From: Acidiferrobacteraceae bacterium
GTDB lineage: Bacteria; Pseudomonadota; Gammaproteobacteria; Arenicellales; UBA868
Assembly: GCA_002721105.1 (NCBI GenBank)
Contig: PBJL01000033.1
Location: forward strand, 53,831 to 117,830
DNA: 64,000 nucleotides
Direction of reading: 5' to 3'
Part shown: one piece after another, positions 1 through 7,132 of the stretch
Numbering within the stretch: position 1 is the stretch's first letter
Layout of the letters: every line of letters starts with the position of its first letter
Notes under the pieces: model-generated
Seen by the model: the letters and a program-made list of their open reading frames with translations, nothing else
Told to the model about the DNA's origin: nothing
The model's database searches: none
Program-made: the position numbers and the translations under genes

Positions 1-938
1 TTGGGGTAGACCGTTTGAGTATTTAGTCCCTCTGGCTCGAGGAATATTTGATGTCCTGTGCGCTCAGAAAAACGCACTACTTTATCCTCGATTGAGGGGC
101 AGTAGCGAGGGCCCGGGCCCTCAATCAAGCCGCTGTATATTGGCGAAAGACTCAAGTTTTTTTGGATTATTTCGTGGGTATTTTCATTTGTCTCGGTTAT
201 GTGACAACTGACTTGTTGTGGGTGTTCCGATGAGGCGCCCATAAAAGAAAAAACCGGTACCGGCTGGTCTCCTTTTTGTTCAACAAGCTGGCTATAGTTA
301 ATAGTGCGGCCATCAATGCGTGGCGGTGTGCCTGTTTTCAGACGGCCTCTGCGAAATGATAGCGCCCTCATGTTCTCGGCTAGCCGACGAGACGAAGGGT
401 CTCCCACTCGCCCTCCTGGCTGGCTGCTTAGGCCAACATGAATTCTCCCATCGAGAAAAGTTCCCGTTGTCAATACAACGGTAGTTGAGTCGATCTTCTG
501 GCCACCAACTATTCTTACGCCAGAGATGACGTCTTTATTAAAGGTTAGTTCTTCAACCGAGCCCTCTAAAATTGAAAGGTTGTGCTGCCCCGAAAGAATT
601 CTGCGGACCGCTTGTCGATAAAGCGCGCGATCTGCTTGGGCGCGCGTTGCTCTTACTGCCGGCCCTTTGCTAGCATTAAGCGTTCGAAACTGAATTCCTG
701 CCTGATCAATTGCGCTCGCCATCAGGCCCCCTAAGGCGTCGATCTCCTTCACGATGTGGCCCTTTCCAATTCCTCCAATTGCCGGATTACAAGACATCTG
801 GCCGATGGTGTCGAGGCGATTCGTAATTAGAAGGGTGTTTGCGCCAATCCTGGCAGCGGCAAGCGCAGCCTCAACACCGGCGTGACCCCCACCAATTACG
901 ATGACATCCATGCGGCTTTCTTTCAGTCGTTTTTGCAT
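1..938 (-). CDS. mnmG: tRNA U34 carboxymethylaminomethyl-modifying enzyme, FAD subunit (partial)
   Basis: MnmG (GidA) works with MnmE to install the carboxymethylaminomethyl group on wobble U34 of tRNAs, using FAD, NADH, methylene-THF and glycine. Translating the minus strand from an ATG at 938 gives about 312 codons that run off the left edge, so the C-terminal half is missing. Visible family blocks are the FAD dinucleotide motif [12 protein letters not shown] at residues 13-24, the cysteine block [45 protein letters not shown] and [15 protein letters not shown] second ATG at 911 begins nine residues later, directly before the FAD motif, and could be the true start. It lies 9 bp downstream of the MotB-like gene in the same direction. 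Its usual partner mnmE is about 3 kb away instead of close by. Confidence 0.97.
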
Positions 939-947
939 CGTCTCAGC

Positions 948-2627
948 TCAATCTGAATAATAATAGTCATATTGTGAAACAATTGCCCTCTCGAACAGGT
1001 AAGCCTCTTCTTGTGAAATGTTTCTTCCTTTTGGAAAAATTACATGCGTATAAAGTTGGCCCGGATAAACTTGTTTCAGTTTGCTCAACCGCTCGTGTAA
1101 ATTATCCTTTGTAACTTCTAGTGCTTTTTTTTGATCTGGCTCCCTTATGGAATAAAAAAGCTCACCATTATCCTTCCAGTGCCGTATTTCTACCCTATGT
1201 CGCCCGACCTCGTTTCGTGCAGGCCTCACCATCCGATTGTAATCCATTTCCAGTTCGCCATAATCTCTCTGCAAAAGCTTGAGCGCCTCTTCGTTCTTGA
1301 TTAAGAGCGCTTTCTGATCTTGAAATTCCGCTATTTCTTTAGCGTGTTTTGAGACCAAGTAATCAAGCTCAGATTTGGTTAACTCATAACGTTGCTTGCT
1401 TTCTTTCAAATCGTCTAAAAGCTTTGCGCGTTGATTCTCGCTCAAGTCTTTTTGTTCAATAACCAGATTTCTCTCGGCTTTTATGAGGTCGATTTCGGCC
1501 TGAAATATATTTTTTTGTTCAGTCATCTTTACTTCAAGCGATTGGGTTTGATCGAGAAGCCCCGCCTTTTCTTGCTCCAAAGTTAATCTCTTCTGGACAA
1601 GTCGGCTTATTTCTTGTTCAAAATTTTTTCTTTCGGTCTCTAATATTAATCTTTTCTCTTCGGTCTCGCTGAGATTTGCGGCTAATATTTTCTTTTCTTT
1701 TTCGAGGGCCTGTTTAAGCTCTAACAGCTCTCCCAACCATGCTGTGGTAGAGTTATTTTCCGATGTCAAGGCATTCTTTTCCTCACGAAGGCGGGAAACT
1801 AGCAACCCAAGGTCTAAAACCTGCTTTTCTAGTTTCAGCTGAAAGTTTGTCAGCGCTGAAAGCTTATTTGCGAGGCTAGCGCTCTTTGCGCTCAGCAGCT
1901 CTCGCTCTTGCTCTAATTGTTTTTTGTCAAGGTCAAGATTTTCGATACGCTTTTCAAGAACGCTCTTTAAAGTTATTAAGTCAACTAGTTGTTGCTCTAG
2001 GCCCAAATTTTCTGATTGCAAAACTTCGGTTTCAGCTTTATGCCTGTCTATTAAAGAAGCGTTTTGCTCGACGAGTAAAGTTTTTTCTTCTAACAGGAGG
2101 TCTTTTTCTAGCGCAAGCACTGCTACTTCATCCCGCAAACCTCTTTCAACATTTTCTAGCAAGCTTTGTTGTTTTTCTGCCGAAAGTAGCTCGGCTTTTA
2201 GGGTTTTGTTTGTCGAGCCTAAAAGATTATTTTTGCTTGTCAGCTCATTTCTTATCTTTTCTAGCGCCATGACGTTATTTAAGAGCTGGCGCATTTTTCC
2301 TTGTCGATCCTCGGCCTTAGACTCAGCCAGATCTCTGAGGGCATTAGTCTCGCCGAGGCGCAACTGCAGTCTCGCCACTTCATCTGCTAGAGTTGCGACC
2401 CTAAGCTCCAAAGTATCGCTCTGAGTGGCAGATTCCTGCTCAAGCTGTATGGTCTGCCTTAGTTGTCTGACTAGATCCACATTTCGAATCAAAATCACTA
2501 CTAGCGCCATAAGGAAAATCATTACGATCACAGTCATTATGTCAGTAAAGGAAGGCCATACGCTGTCTTCCTCGGTTCGCGTTCGCCCTTCCGACCTTAG
2601 GTCTACAAAGCCGCCGAGCTGTATCAC
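948..2627 (-). CDS. MotB/ExbD-like protein with very long coiled coil, function unknown
   Basis: This 559-residue protein has a short N-terminus, one membrane helix at about residues 28-48 and then about 430 residues of almost unbroken E/K/L/Q-rich heptad sequence (about 50-470). A compact C-terminal domain of about 85 residues follows, rich in aromatics and ending in a YDYYY block. The helix starts PSFTDIMTVIVM, with Asp29 near its N-terminal end. This is the MotB/ExbD/TolR arrangement in which a membrane Asp carries protons. By that analogy the coiled coil lies in the periplasm. I see no OmpA-type peptidoglycan-binding domain. The GTG start overlaps the stop of the MotA-like gene as GTGA, so the two are translationally coupled and presumably form one complex. 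What it moves or pulls is unknown. I do not recognise the C-terminal domain. Confidence 0.88.
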   Translation of the reverse strand: MIQLGGFVDLRSEGRTRTEEDSVWPSFTDIMTVIVMIFLMALVVILIRNVDLVRQLRQTIQLEQESATQSDTLELRVATLADEVARLQLRLGETNALRDLAESKAEDRQGKMRQLLNNVMALEKIRNELTSKNNLLGSTNKTLKAELLSAEKQQSLLENVERGLRDEVAVLALEKDLLLEEKTLLVEQNASLIDRHKAETEVLQSENLGLEQQLVDLITLKSVLEKRIENLDLDKKQLEQERELLSAKSASLANKLSALTNFQLKLEKQVLDLGLLVSRLREEKNALTSENNSTTAWLGELLELKQALEKEKKILAANLSETEEKRLILETERKNFEQEISRLVQKRLTLEQEKAGLLDQTQSLEVKMTEQKNIFQAEIDLIKAERNLVIEQKDLSENQRAKLLDDLKESKQRYELTKSELDYLVSKHAKEIAEFQDQKALLIKNEEALKLLQRDYGELEMDYNRMVRPARNEVGRHRVEIRHWKDNGELFYSIREPDQKKALEVTKDNLHERLSKLKQVYPGQLYTHVIFPKGRNISQEEAYLFERAIVSQYDYYYSD

Positions 2628-3565
2628 CGATCTATATCTCTTAAGCGAAACCCGTCTCTTAAAAGCTCAGTTATTTCTGACAGGCCCTTGCTGTGCTGCC
2701 GCATCTCGTCCCGATATGCGGCTAGCACTTCGTTCAGTTGGTTCGCTGTCTCAGCGTATTGGCCTTGCGAGGCATCAAGCCTTTTGACTAAAGCCCCGGC
2801 TGCTCGAATAATGTCTGAGAAGTCCTCGATTAGCGTTTCTTCCTTAACTTGGAAGCGCGGCAAAAGCAATGTAGTGGTGGCGTGCTCGACTCGTCCAATA
2901 ATTTGGGTCTGAGCATCAGCGAGCCTTAGGTAAAAATAACCCAGAAAAAAGTATGCGAGAATCGCTGTCATTGTTGTGGAGAGCGCTGTTGACATTCCAT
3001 GAACAACTAGGCCTAAGCTGCTAATTTGAGTATTTCCGACTATCATCTCTGATGCGCCCAACAACGCGATCGATAGTGACACGATCGTTCCGAACACGCC
3101 TGTTAGAATCATCACATTGTGAGCAAATCTGGGAAAGCTTGCACGGCTAGACTCTTTCGCTATCAAGGTTGCGGCGAGCGCGCTATGATCGATCCTGGTG
3201 CGTTTTTGATTTAAATCTCTAAGGGCTCTATAGCGATCAGCAATTATTGTATCGCCCGCTATGCCTTGTACAATCTCGCCTTTCTCGCTTACTTGGTCTA
3301 AGAAATGATTCAAGGCCTGCTCCTCTGCGTCGTACCTTAAAAATGACTGTACTAAACGAATTATGGCCGCCAAGAAGAGGATTACGATGCCACCATTAAT
3401 TGTCCAGCTTACGGTGGTCAGCTGATTTCTTACATACACTTCTGACAAAAATTCTCGTTGCAACAAGCCCACCAATAACAACAGCCCTGCCGCTATCACT
3501 AGCTGCATCAGAGCATTGCGAGCAATTCTGGGGCGCACAGCCTGACCCATCTTTCTTTTTTTCAA
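2624..3565 (-). CDS. MotA/TolQ/ExbB-family proton channel protein
   Basis: This is the channel-forming partner of the coiled-coil MotB-like protein. From the start chosen here it has 313 residues. Four hydrophobic segments can be seen: two near the N-terminus (about 14-34 and 52-75), then a cytoplasmic stretch of about 85 residues, then two more (about 148-170 and 185-215). The last pair carries GVFGTIVSLSIALLG and GMSTALSTTMTAILAYF, the TM3/TM4 pattern of the MotA/TolQ/ExbB family. A hydrophilic, probably helical tail of about 75 residues follows. I place the start at TTG 3565 because a perfect GGAGG (3573-3577) sits 7 nt upstream. An upstream ATG (3628) and a downstream ATG (3550) lack such a site. 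The family is solid; the biological role is not known. Confidence 0.88.
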   Translation of the reverse strand: MKKRKMGQAVRPRIARNALMQLVIAAGLLLLVGLLQREFLSEVYVRNQLTTVSWTINGGIVILFLAAIIRLVQSFLRYDAEEQALNHFLDQVSEKGEIVQGIAGDTIIADRYRALRDLNQKRTRIDHSALAATLIAKESSRASFPRFAHNVMILTGVFGTIVSLSIALLGASEMIVGNTQISSLGLVVHGMSTALSTTMTAILAYFFLGYFYLRLADAQTQIIGRVEHATTTLLLPRFQVKEETLIEDFSDIIRAAGALVKRLDASQGQYAETANQLNEVLAAYRDEMRQHSKGLSEITELLRDGFRLRDIDR

Positions 3566-3760: not shown

Positions 3761-3991
3761 ATGTCAGCACCACGAAAAGTGCCGCCCGGTTGGTGGCTTC
3801 TCGGCTATCTTGCGCAATACCAAAGGCGGGCGCTCCTTGACGCTTTGGGTGAAGCGGGCGTCTCTAGCGACTCTGTTTATCAAATAGTTACAAAAGCCGC
3901 GCAGAATTTGCCTAATGACGAATACAGGCGGCTTTCTAAAAGCTGGGCGGTGCGGCAGCACCGAAATCGATCCTCGAGCCGCTCTTTTTAA
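3761..3991 (+). CDS. possible small protein, unknown
   Basis: A 76-codon plus-strand reading frame fills most of the 395 bp between the MotA-like gene and mnmE, both of which are on the minus strand. From ATG 3761 the product starts MSAPRKVPPGWWLLGYLAQ and contains predicted helical, Arg/Leu/Tyr-rich sequence with no membrane segment or lipobox. A TTG 39 bp upstream (3722) is in frame. No strong ribosome site precedes the ATG. The product looks protein-like (few rare residues, a balanced charge pattern, a Pro-Gly-Trp-Trp turn), whereas the overlapping minus-strand frame looks random. I recognise no family. It may be a genuine small gene or a chance frame. Confidence 0.4.
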   Translation: MSAPRKVPPGWWLLGYLAQYQRRALLDALGEAGVSSDSVYQIVTKAAQNLPNDEYRRLSKSWAVRQHRNRSSSRSF

Positions 3992-4023: not shown

Positions 4024-5394
4024 TCATTTTCCTATACAAAAGCGAGAAAAAATCTGGCCCAACAGCTCTTCAGTGCTGCCACGCCCTGTTATTTCTCCTA
4101 AGATGTTTTGTGCTAGCCTCAGCTCCTCAGCGAGCAGCTCGATGGCGCTTGACGTTACCCCGCTGTTAGTAGCGTCTAAACAGTGTTTGGCGCGCTGTAT
4201 AGCATCTAGGTGCCTTCGGCGCGCAGCGAACGGGGCTTCTGCGCCGCCTGTTTTACCGAAAACACCTTCCATAGCATCTTGCAACTCTTCTAATCCCTCT
4301 TGTTGGGTGGCGCTTATTGCGAATGAGCGGTTCGATTTGGCCGGCTTTAATATTTCTCCATATGGTTGACCTGTTAAATCACATTTGTTTATCAAAATAA
4401 AAACCGGCGTTTCGGTGTTTTCCAACATATTAAGGTCATATGTTTCGGTCGAAGCATCATCGCTTACAACTAACACCAAGTCGGCCTTGGCGATGGCTCT
4501 GTTGGCACGCTTGATTCCTTCCGCTTCTATTGGGTCAGGGCTAGCTCGGTGGCCCGCGGTGTCAATGAGGCGCAAAGGCACGCCATTCAAATTAATGTCT
4601 ACTTCAACTAGGTCTCTTGTTGTCCCCGGGCGGGCACTAACAATTGCTCGGTCTTGTCCTGATAGCGCGTTCAAAACGCTTGATTTCCCAACGTTTGGCG
4701 GCCCTACTAAAACTGCCACTGCCCCTGAGACTAAAAATGATCCAGGGCGAGCACGGTTGAGCAGCTTATCTAGCGCCCCAACAATTCCATCTATCTGGGC
4801 CCTTATTGTTTCTGGCTCAAGTCGGCTTAAATCTTCGTCGGCAAAGTCGATGTCCGCTTCCACCGACGCTCTGAGCTCACCAAGCTTAGAGTCTAACTCA
4901 AATAATTCAGATGAAAACTGGCCAGAAAGCGACCTTAGTGCTGCCTGAGCCGCTGCTTTTGTTCGGCTCTCAATCAAATCCGCTACGGCCTCCGCTTGAG
5001 TAAGATCGACTTTGCCGTTCAAAAATGCTCGCTCGGTGAACTCTCCCGGGCGTGCTGCGCGCGCACCCATGCTCAATATGCGCTCTACGAGCAAGTCCAT
5101 AACCATCGGGCCACCATGCCCATATAATTCTAGCGTGTCCTCGCCGGTGTATGACTGAGGCCCTTTGAACAACAACGCTACACCTTCATCGATAAATCCT
5201 TGTTGGCCGTCTCGAAAACGACAAACCTTGGCGATACGGTGTCTAGGTACATCGCCGAGCAAGGTTAATGCTATCTGTTCGGCGCCCTGACCTGAAACCC
5301 GCACTATTCCTATCCCGCCGAAGCCGGGCGGCGTCGAAATCGCGACAACTGTGTCGCTATGCTCACTCAGCTGAGTTTTTTCAGGTGACTCCAC
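4024..5394 (-). CDS. mnmE: tRNA modification GTPase MnmE
   Basis: MnmE (TrmE) is the potassium-stimulated GTPase partner of MnmG in modification of tRNA wobble U34. The protein shows the N-terminal folate-binding domain (STPPGFGGIGIVRVSG; GYGGP-type block YGHGGPMVMD), a central helical domain, an inserted G domain with P-loop GPPNVGKSSVLNALSG, DTAGHR and NKCD, and the diagnostic C-terminal FCIGK with its catalytic cysteine. The frame is open up to ATG 5481, but that start would overlap yidC by 62 bp. GTG 5394 gives 456 residues, close to the usual 450-460, and leaves 25 bp after the yidC stop, so I prefer it. The codons before the conserved core are not decisive. Confidence 0.95.
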   Translation of the reverse strand: MESPEKTQLSEHSDTVVAISTPPGFGGIGIVRVSGQGAEQIALTLLGDVPRHRIAKVCRFRDGQQGFIDEGVALLFKGPQSYTGEDTLELYGHGGPMVMDLLVERILSMGARAARPGEFTERAFLNGKVDLTQAEAVADLIESRTKAAAQAALRSLSGQFSSELFELDSKLGELRASVEADIDFADEDLSRLEPETIRAQIDGIVGALDKLLNRARPGSFLVSGAVAVLVGPPNVGKSSVLNALSGQDRAIVSARPGTTRDLVEVDINLNGVPLRLIDTAGHRASPDPIEAEGIKRANRAIAKADLVLVVSDDASTETYDLNMLENTETPVFILINKCDLTGQPYGEILKPAKSNRSFAISATQQEGLEELQDAMEGVFGKTGGAEAPFAARRRHLDAIQRAKHCLDATNSGVTSSAIELLAEELRLAQNILGEITGRGSTEELLGQIFSRFCIGK

Positions 5395-5419
5395 AGTAGA
5401 AGGGCCCAGGTTTTTGGTC

Positions 5420-7132
5420 TTAATTTTGCGCGGCGTTGATCTTTCTGGTGATATACCACTGCTGTGCAATGGATAGAACATTGTTTGCTAGCCAATAAAG
5501 CACTAGCCCTGCTGGAAACCAAAGGAAAAATACTGTGAACACTACCGGGAGCGCCATCATTATTTTTTGCTGCAGCGGATCAGGAGGCGTTGGATTCAAA
5601 AACTGCTGCCCGAACATGGAAACGCCCATTAATATCGGCAACACATAGAAGGGGTCTGGTATGGAAAGGTCTTGTATCCATAAAGCCAGAGGAGCCTGCC
5701 TTAGTTCAACGCTCTCCAATAACACCCAATATAAGGCAATAAAAACCGGTATTTGAATTACGATCGGCAAGCAGCCGCCCAACGGGTTGACTTTTTCTTT
5801 TTTATAGATGGCCATCATTTCTTGTTGAAACTTCTGCCGATCATCTGGATAACGCTCCTTCAAAGTCTTCATTCTTGGGCCCAGCTTTTTCATTCGAGCC
5901 ATTGACTTGTAGCTTGCTGCGGATAAAGGATAAAAGGCAAGTTTCACTAGCAATGTCAACAAAAGAATTGAGACGCCCCAGTTCGGAAATATCTTATTTA
6001 TGTAGGTCATTAGCCAAAATAAAGGCGACGAAATTGGGGTTAGCCATCCATAATCGACGGTGAGCTCGAGCCTTTGGTCCGCGGTAACCATTCGTCTTTG
6101 TTCTTTAGGCCCTACATACATTCGGGTTGTAGCAACCCCTTTTTCGCCCGCCGCTACGACCGTTGGCTCGAGGTGCTTGAAGCCTAAATGATACCGCGGG
6201 TCATTGTTCTTCTCGGTCACTCTCGAATAAAACTCGTAACTTGATTCTTCAGCCATAAGAAAGGCGCCAACAAAATAGTGTTGAAGCATTGCTACCCATC
6301 CACCGGCTGTCGTTGCGGCGAGGTTTTTTTCCCTCATGTCAGCGAACTTGACTTTGTCGTATTTGTTCTCTGGGGTGTAGATTGCCCCGCCACTATAGCT
6401 AGGTAGGCGCCCTATGAACCCCAACTTGCCTTGTTCTGGTTTAATTTCGGTGCGCGATAATTGCCCGTACAAAAAGCCCGCCCACTCGGCATTGCTTGCG
6501 TTGTCTATTTCGAACTCGATATCGAAAAAATAGCTATTCTTGTAGAATTTATAGTGTTTTTTGTACTTCACACCATCGCCGTCATTCCATATTAGGCTCG
6601 CCGTAACGGTCTCGTCGTCGCCCATCACATACGATGTCGATTCTGGCTCAAACAGCGTGTGGTGGTTTGGTAATAAGCCCTCAAGACCCAAAAGACCGCT
6701 TTGTATGTAGAACAAATCTTTGCCGTTATCACTTAATAACTGAAACGGTTTATCTGGCTGATCTACCGCAATCGGATAGGTCAGCAAATCCAAAACCCTC
6801 AAATCTCCACCATGACTATCCAATTCTGCCCTAAGAAGATCTGTTTCAATTACTATTCTGTTCCCACGCCCAACGCGCCCCTTTTCAGCGATTTTCTGTT
6901 GGTTAGCAACGTTAGGGGTGGTTTTGTTCTGGGCGCTTGGCACGCTTGGTAAATCATCGTTACCGATGTTCGATGAAGAGGTTCTGCTTTCTTGATTTCC
7001 GCTATTGGAAGAGGCGACTTCTTGTGTTGTGGGAGCTATAGTTTGGGGCGACGTATACTCAATCCAGGCTTGCCAGATCAACATAAGAACTAGGGCCAAG
7101 CCAGACAATAACAGGAGCCTCTGAAAGTCCAT
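5420..7132 (-). CDS. yidC: membrane protein insertase YidC
   Basis: YidC inserts and folds inner-membrane proteins, alone or with SecYEG, including subunits such as AtpE and AtpB encoded in this window. The 570-residue protein has the Gram-negative layout. An N-terminal anchor spans residues 4-24, then a large periplasmic domain of about 300 residues (roughly 60-350). The conserved insertase core follows with hydrophobic segments around 370-395, 445-470, 490-510 and 525-550. Family blocks include WGVSILLLTLLVKLAFYPL, the positively charged C1 hairpin (KSMARMKKLGPRMKTLKERY) and LGGCLPIVIQIPVFIALYWV. It sits in the standard order rnpA-yidD-yidC-mnmE, 18 bp downstream of yidD, and is probably co-transcribed from the rpmH side. 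Confidence 0.97.
   Translation of the reverse strand: MDFQRLLLLSGLALVLMLIWQAWIEYTSPQTIAPTTQEVASSNSGNQESRTSSSNIGNDDLPSVPSAQNKTTPNVANQQKIAEKGRVGRGNRIVIETDLLRAELDSHGGDLRVLDLLTYPIAVDQPDKPFQLLSDNGKDLFYIQSGLLGLEGLLPNHHTLFEPESTSYVMGDDETVTASLIWNDGDGVKYKKHYKFYKNSYFFDIEFEIDNASNAEWAGFLYGQLSRTEIKPEQGKLGFIGRLPSYSGGAIYTPENKYDKVKFADMREKNLAATTAGGWVAMLQHYFVGAFLMAEESSYEFYSRVTEKNNDPRYHLGFKHLEPTVVAAGEKGVATTRMYVGPKEQRRMVTADQRLELTVDYGWLTPISSPLFWLMTYINKIFPNWGVSILLLTLLVKLAFYPLSAASYKSMARMKKLGPRMKTLKERYPDDRQKFQQEMMAIYKKEKVNPLGGCLPIVIQIPVFIALYWVLLESVELRQAPLALWIQDLSIPDPFYVLPILMGVSMFGQQFLNPTPPDPLQQKIMMALPVVFTVFFLWFPAGLVLYWLANNVLSIAQQWYITRKINAAQN

Follow-up and report, generated by a model that had tools for sequence, protein, structure and literature searches.

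A MotA/MotB-type gene pair whose B subunit carries a coiled coil of heptad-quantised length: a probable ion-driven envelope motor

The window analysed here is a stretch of 64,000 nucleotides from contig PBJL01000033.1 of an Acidiferrobacteraceae bacterium (assembly GCA_002721105.1), and the subject is a pair of overlapping genes at one end of it, here called A and B. The pair probably encodes an ion-driven inner-membrane motor in which the B dimer is drawn out as a continuous coiled rod that ends in a periplasmic TolR/ExbD-like tip. The direct basis of this reading is a conserved pair, a conserved membrane Asp, a coil length quantised in heptads, a hydrophobic periodicity of 3.5 residues and a similarity of fold at the tip. 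Between species the coil length varies several-fold, nearly always in steps of seven, which points to an envelope motor not described before whose shaft is a continuous rod. A preliminary description of the locus, made from the sequence alone, had named an unassigned MotA/MotB-type pair coupled translationally through GTGA; both points were borne out, by the many homologues of the two subunits and by the overlap of B (948-2627) with the end of A (2624). The features of the pair are as follows.

2624..3550, minus strand: A subunit, 308 aa, MotA/TolQ/ExbB-type, four membrane helices (read by eye); motif HGMSTALSTTMTAI in transmembrane helix 4, GFRL at the end of the C-terminal tail, alternative start at 3565
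948..2627, minus strand: B subunit, 559 aa, GTG start, MotB/TolR-type; a short N-terminus, one transmembrane helix with Asp29, the coiled coil and a TolR-like tip
2624..2627, minus strand: GTGA start/stop overlap of A and B
2484..2558, minus strand: membrane helix of B, residues W24-R48, with Asp29 placed by homology at its cytoplasmic end
1239..2462, minus strand: coiled coil of B, residues ~56-463, heptads interrupted by about two shifts of phase; length in class 1 modulo 7
951..1202, minus strand: C-terminal domain of B, residues ~476-559; its strands and two helices follow a TolR/ExbD-like order, YDYY at the end

Coil length was taken as the distance between the membrane Trp and the tip domain. 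Profile anchors gave it for 241 of 249 sequences (eight were dropped because the tip was absent or incomplete), superseding earlier motif-anchored scans that had omitted 13 of 200 and 19 of 249. The first set comprised 196 unique sequences with 51 distinct lengths from 179 to 721. Modulo 7, these lengths fell into class 0 (19 lengths), class 1 (17) and class 4 (13), with one each in classes 2 and 5 and none in classes 3 and 6 (p ~2e-11), and the same lengths showed no structure at moduli 4, 5, 6 and 8 to 12. We read the classes 0, 4, 1, 5, 2 and 6 as zero to five stutters of +4. Among close pairs, whose ends are at least 90% identical and which share members, the difference in length was a multiple of seven in 265 of 268. 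Parsimony on a tree of 193 sequences gave 86 changes of length and 14 changes of class, against 57-76 class changes in 200 randomised offsets. A second set served as a test, and all 120 further database proteins were of class 0; they represent five lengths only, of which one was new, and most are closely related to known loci. In a third set, also a test and partly from genomes sampled before, 36 of 40 further loci were measured, 35 being of class 0 or 4 and one of class 6; this set contributed 12 further distinct lengths, of which 11 belong to class 0 or 4. Overall, 61 of 64 distinct lengths belong to classes 0, 1 and 4, within a range of 175 to 805 residues, so that the heptad rule spans a more than fourfold length range in a motor subunit.

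The sequence of the coil has the matching periodicity. Hydrophobicity in the window copy of B peaked at 3.5 residues with a power of 2.70, the next of the ten periods compared being 3.2 with 0.87, and the mean power over 193 coils was 3.58 at 3.5 residues and at most 0.32 at the nine other periods. The window coil has 408 residues, corresponding to ~60.6 nm at 0.1485 nm per residue; the preliminary figure of about 430 residues was thus slightly high, and its length of about 60 nm was right. Phase along the coil was followed in six proteins. L042 and L057 keep a single phase throughout; L001 (652 residues), P0186 and L020 have one dominant phase, which shifts in a few sections of the coil, for the most part close to its end; and in the window copy there are at least two phase shifts. 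Across relatives the coil spans ~140-770 residues, or ~21-115 nm if extended, the short relatives having 141 to ~211 coil residues (21-31 nm). The longest B is that of L283, with 805 residues from membrane Trp to tip (class 0 modulo 7, ~115 nm). Charge pairing from g to e' was attractive in 754 cases and repulsive in 412, which is the direction a parallel dimer would give; similar values were found at other positions, and the pairing is hence not used as an argument.

Length periodicity of this kind is known from other coils. PadC linkers occur in lengths that are multiples of seven, as described in part of PMC9587094, and periodic arm lengths together with force transmission are reported for Smc in part of PMC5344682. 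The B coil shares this periodicity, whereas those coils are signalling linkers or SMC arms and not axles of ion-driven motors. According to a passage of PMC5082667, coiled coils vary in length less, on average, than other regions; the variation of the B coil is the opposite of the average trend.

The membrane parts of the two subunits are of MotA/MotB type. In MotA/TolQ/ExbB proteins, two conserved pore helices with small and polar residues follow a cytoplasmic loop. In A, the motifs T-G-V-F-G-T and S-T-A-L-S-T-T-x-T-A-I are invariant or nearly so, as expected of such pore helices. The window copy of A scored 18.2 bits against PF01618, below the cut-off of 22.9; over the genomes of 13 relatives this family matched A in nine, above the cut-off in seven (in three only with neighbouring pieces in frame), and missed it in four (G001, G004, G011 and G031). 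Among solved structures searched by sequence up to E 1, A had a single match, at E 0.54, and B matched the MotB-related entry 8vvn (E 0.006) along with four chance-like entries (E of 0.19 or higher).

In B, the stretch W-P-S-F-T-D29 opens the only evident membrane helix. Asp29, named in the preliminary description, proved to be conserved: of 241 proteins identified by homology, 236 have D here, and the exceptions were one H, in P0124, and four entries that start after this position. P0124 is a metagenome protein, and its His may be a sequencing error or mark a dead copy. D was also found in all 38 B proteins identified by a membrane profile in the last 40 loci, and a larger count, 364 of 369, has some circularity, since a motif that contains D had served to choose 128 locus sequences. 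When the register of the coil is extended into the membrane helix, Asp29 takes an outward b position, while positions a and d are filled by Met31, Val35, Phe38, Leu42, Ile45, Asn49, Leu52 and Leu56. A buried Asn at a is a mark of parallel dimers, and Asn49 is almost invariant (263 distinct rows). Just outside the membrane, positions a and d are mostly polar from residue 59 to 77, and polar again near 105-108 and 126; the stretch 59-77 may be a hinge or plug.

The tip domain was placed by fold. Pfam assigned no family to B up to E 1, in line with the earlier claim that an OmpA-like domain is absent, and PF02472 (ExbD/TolR) was listed at none of the A/B loci, so that by sequence profile B does not qualify as a member of that family. 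A fold search with the tip returned TolR and ExbD as the closest solved folds, and the modelled tip probably has an ExbD-like fold; with the full B model, nothing was found at E <= 1e-3. The fold list also contained ribosomal proteins, integrase cores and CoaA, which were set aside as common arrangements. The preliminary description had seen in B a novel C-terminal domain and nothing like ExbD. The second statement holds for sequence profiles and probably fails for the fold, and novelty is not supported, given the closest solved folds.

In the mechanism proposed here, a ring of A subunits and a B dimer would form a motor of the A5B2 class, presumably with 5:2 stoichiometry, and ions would pass at Asp29 between ring and dimer, as homology suggests. 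Beyond the membrane the two B helices would run on as a single uninterrupted coil of two parallel strands, and the TolR/ExbD-like domain would end this coil on what is predicted to be the periplasmic side. The coil would be mechanically one with the axle because the axis of the B dimer runs on as the coil, and it could act as a stiff rod or drive shaft that passes tension or torque from the motor to a distant peptidoglycan or outer-membrane partner. That partner of the tip is putative, and the job of the motor would most likely be envelope maintenance beside Tol-Pal. Since phase is kept and length is not, the coil would be a continuous rod and not a ruler. With ~60 nm in the window and ~115 nm in L283, such a rod would therefore run along the wall or be tilted, not radial; the short coils could just span the periplasm. 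If the motor reading is true, the B coil would be, to our knowledge, the longest axle extension in the Tol/Ton/flagellar motor class. A bolder form, in which the B dimer is a true rotary or torsional shaft along the cell wall, up to ~115 nm long, driving a distant TolR-like tip with length free and phase fixed, is rather doubtful and is put forward tentatively. If the motor reading is true, relatives offer a natural series of shafts, ~21 nm to 115 nm long and limited to few phase classes, for distinguishing torque, tension or neither, and the series also bears on how rods longer than the periplasm are housed.

Four other explanations were weighed. The strongest of these explanations is that the heptad steps are mutational, arising by duplication or recombination between coil repeats, with little bearing on mechanics. 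Exact internal duplications were found in the coils of P0163 (periods 35 and 42) and P0175 (period 70 over 88 residues); because whole heptads were duplicated, mutation and not selection could account for the steps, and 21, 35, 63 and 70 are indeed common differences. Arms of Smc, measured in 28 of 30 loci, were nearly constant (504-505 from Walker A to hinge, 439-448 from hinge to the downstream head anchor), and they provide a contrast and no test of the heptad rule, a control of equally length-variable coils lying outside the comparison. The internal duplications raised our estimate for a mutational origin slightly, to that of an unlikely but serious possibility. However, the window copy has no exact internal repeat, single-heptad differences are common (30 of the 268 close pairs), the rule persists in diverged lineages, and the product is an in-phase coil either way.

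An antiparallel hairpin within each chain, returning the tip to the membrane, is improbable. In the AF2 monomer model a low-confidence break at 250-259 separates two helices, 28-249 and 260-467, that are similarly long, and 60 nm is longer than a typical periplasm. The arms of a hairpin must grow together, however, giving even heptad steps, whereas odd multiples make up at least 154 of the 265 differences in whole heptads (7, 21, 35, 49, 63, 91 and 105 are among the 14 commonest); each odd step would need one arm to be shifted, making a fold-back unlikely. In addition, L001 holds its dominant phase over 652 residues, and the short relatives need no folding. The statement in the preliminary description that B must fold back is thus disfavoured.

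Insertion of B in reverse, with the long coil in the cytoplasm like the tail of ZorA, is very improbable: Arg48-Asn49 is nearly invariant directly after the membrane helix and the cytoplasm easily fits a rod of 60-115 nm, but the N-terminus is similar to ZorB and MotB, the tip is most like periplasmic TolR and ExbD, and the Asp opens the helix as in MotB. The topology of the helix adopted for the motor itself follows from the MotB/ZorB similarity. Least probable is a Zorya-like phage-defence motor. ZorB is the best named profile for B, but membership was rejected because the match is confined to about residues 13-85. In addition, B is without an OmpA-type wall domain, part of the family has a stable mnmE/mnmG locus, the full-length ZorB-like matches (E 1.5e-108 to 1.7e-76) that 3 of 114 genomes contain are not at the loci of the pair, and no defence genes, including the ZorC/D/E genes that the preliminary description had found missing, were recognised by eye among the neighbours, on which PADLOC was not run.

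The proposed motor shares features with several known systems. In MotAB an Asp opens the membrane helix of the B subunit and A has four helices, and the pair resembles the flagellar stator in both; MotB differs in its OmpA-like domain and MotB_plug, which are unmatched in B. With TolQR and ExbBD the pair shares a MotA/ExbB-type A, a single-helix B with its Asp and, probably, the TolR/ExbD-like tip fold. The linker of ExbD and TolR is described in part of PMC12905483 as unstructured, with ~20 residues; A/B has a coiled coil of ~140-770 residues instead of this short flexible linker, and PF02472 gives no match. Replacement of TolR was considered and rejected, as PF02472 proteins were found in 11 of 12 pair-bearing genomes (the miss being G007, 1.6 Mb), and so was a flagellar link, since MotB_plug proteins were found in 7 of 13 pair-bearing genomes and not in the other 6; by these counts the pair does not stand in for Tol/Ton or for flagellar stators.

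ZorAB provides the best N-terminal profile match of B, PADLOC and NCBIfam both describing the first 85 residues as ZorB/MotB-like, and in both systems one subunit has a very long tail. In Zorya, according to part of PMC11890865, it is ZorA whose cytoplasmic C-terminus forms the rod, and ZorB carries a Pal-like wall-binding domain at its end, whereas the A/B pair has its rod on B and a TolR-like tip. In GldLM, too, the dimeric B-type subunit is drawn out as a shaft, 18 nm long and made of four periplasmic domains in GldM as described in part of PMC9389320; the A/B shaft is instead a coiled coil of 21-115 nm when extended. The NCBIfam models PRK09039 and PRK09040 matched the N-terminus of B weakly, PRK09039 also the start of the coil, with scores far below their cut-offs (18.2 against 305 and 27.9 against 194). 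B subunits of generic transporters are described in part of PMC12505986 as having a compact wall-binding fold and plug-linkers of variable length, and the word 'coiled' does not occur in the main text of that source.

The pair is common. At E <= 1e-3, phmmer returned at least 2297 homologues of A and at least 314 of B, with ~8000 candidates scored for each, which argues against a chance association; a profile built from 11 mostly short B proteins gave at least 2131 matches (~8000 candidates scored). A genome scan with a single A protein alone yielded no loci. A second scan yielded 310 loci, of which 80 were kept, 76 of these containing the strict B motif and three more being labelled as B by BLAST. 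A was found in 63 of 369 genomes sampled from the class of G001 (taken as Gammaproteobacteria), 55 of them at E < 1e-60, in 29 of 299 from its phylum (28 strong), in 74 of 147 from its order (73 strong) and in 65 of 109 from the order of G005 (63 strong), each sample counting its centre genome. The earlier suggestion of a housekeeping envelope motor is no more than plausible, the pair being common yet non-universal in the two orders. If the motor reading is true, a widespread new member of the Tol/Ton/flagellar motor class would be present, strong A occurring in about one-seventh of the genomes sampled from the class. A literature search, with bioRxiv and most subscription papers outside its scope, turned up no recognisable description of the pair.

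Among the matches listed, the names of B proteins, where one is given, include Smc, 'chromosome segregation ATPase', 'myosin heavy subunit', 'Flagellar motor protein MotB' and hypothetical, and the coiled coil makes misnaming probable. In L266 and L267, B has a WPGFTD membrane motif and no recognised TolR-like tip, possibly representing a sub-family, and in L270 and L271 a relative of A is present and B was not found. L003 and L004 come from one assembly, as do L002 and L020, and may be paralogues or binning mixtures.

Next to the pair, the window contains the following genes.

3761..3988, plus strand: small conserved gene, 76 aa, MSAPRKVPPGWWLLGY..., divergent from A
4024..5481, minus strand: mnmE, upstream neighbour, true start probably within the open reading frame
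1..911, minus strand: mnmG, start ~911, truncated at the edge of the window; corresponds to frames of full length (393-847 aa) in relatives

Read along the minus strand next to dnaA, the genes come in the order yidC, mnmE, A, B, mnmG. Read from the ATG at 3550, A has 308 aa; one database copy has 313 aa, compatible with the start at 3565 given in the preliminary description. In the relatives L042, L050 and L071 the overlap of A and B reads ATGA. The location between mnmE and mnmG is conserved in part of the relatives: among 117 loci with a called A, drawn from 132 loci with some contigs counted twice, 25 have mnmE close to A and 26 have mnmG close to B. Other relatives, Sedimenticola and Thiodiazotropha among them, carry the pair at other places. 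Neighbours vary by lineage and include Slp-like lipoprotein, glycerate-kinase-like, hemH-like and his genes; labelled by eye and with no family scan, they contained no recognised third partner shared across lineages and, beside the pair, no TolA/TonB-like gene. In several loci of the Thiodiazotropha group (L053-L076), genes resembling Slp-type outer-membrane lipoproteins stand directly downstream of B, again by eye.

The 76-aa frame lies between mnmE and A on the opposite strand and behaves as coding, given codon-position differences of 0.383, 0.254 and 0.601. It had no match in Pfam or NCBIfam up to E 1. In relatives, the protein starts with MPAKRKPPPEWWLLGYLAQYQP and ends near YRRLSKAWAVRQHR. 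The gene occurs in 16 of 285 loci, all from the closest relatives, corresponding to 16 of the 23 loci of L001-L025 with at least 700 bases upstream of A, among which the two pairs of loci from shared assemblies mentioned above are included. In L002-L005, mnmE is not directly before A and the 76-aa gene is still upstream of A, indicating that this gene goes with A/B and not with mnmE.
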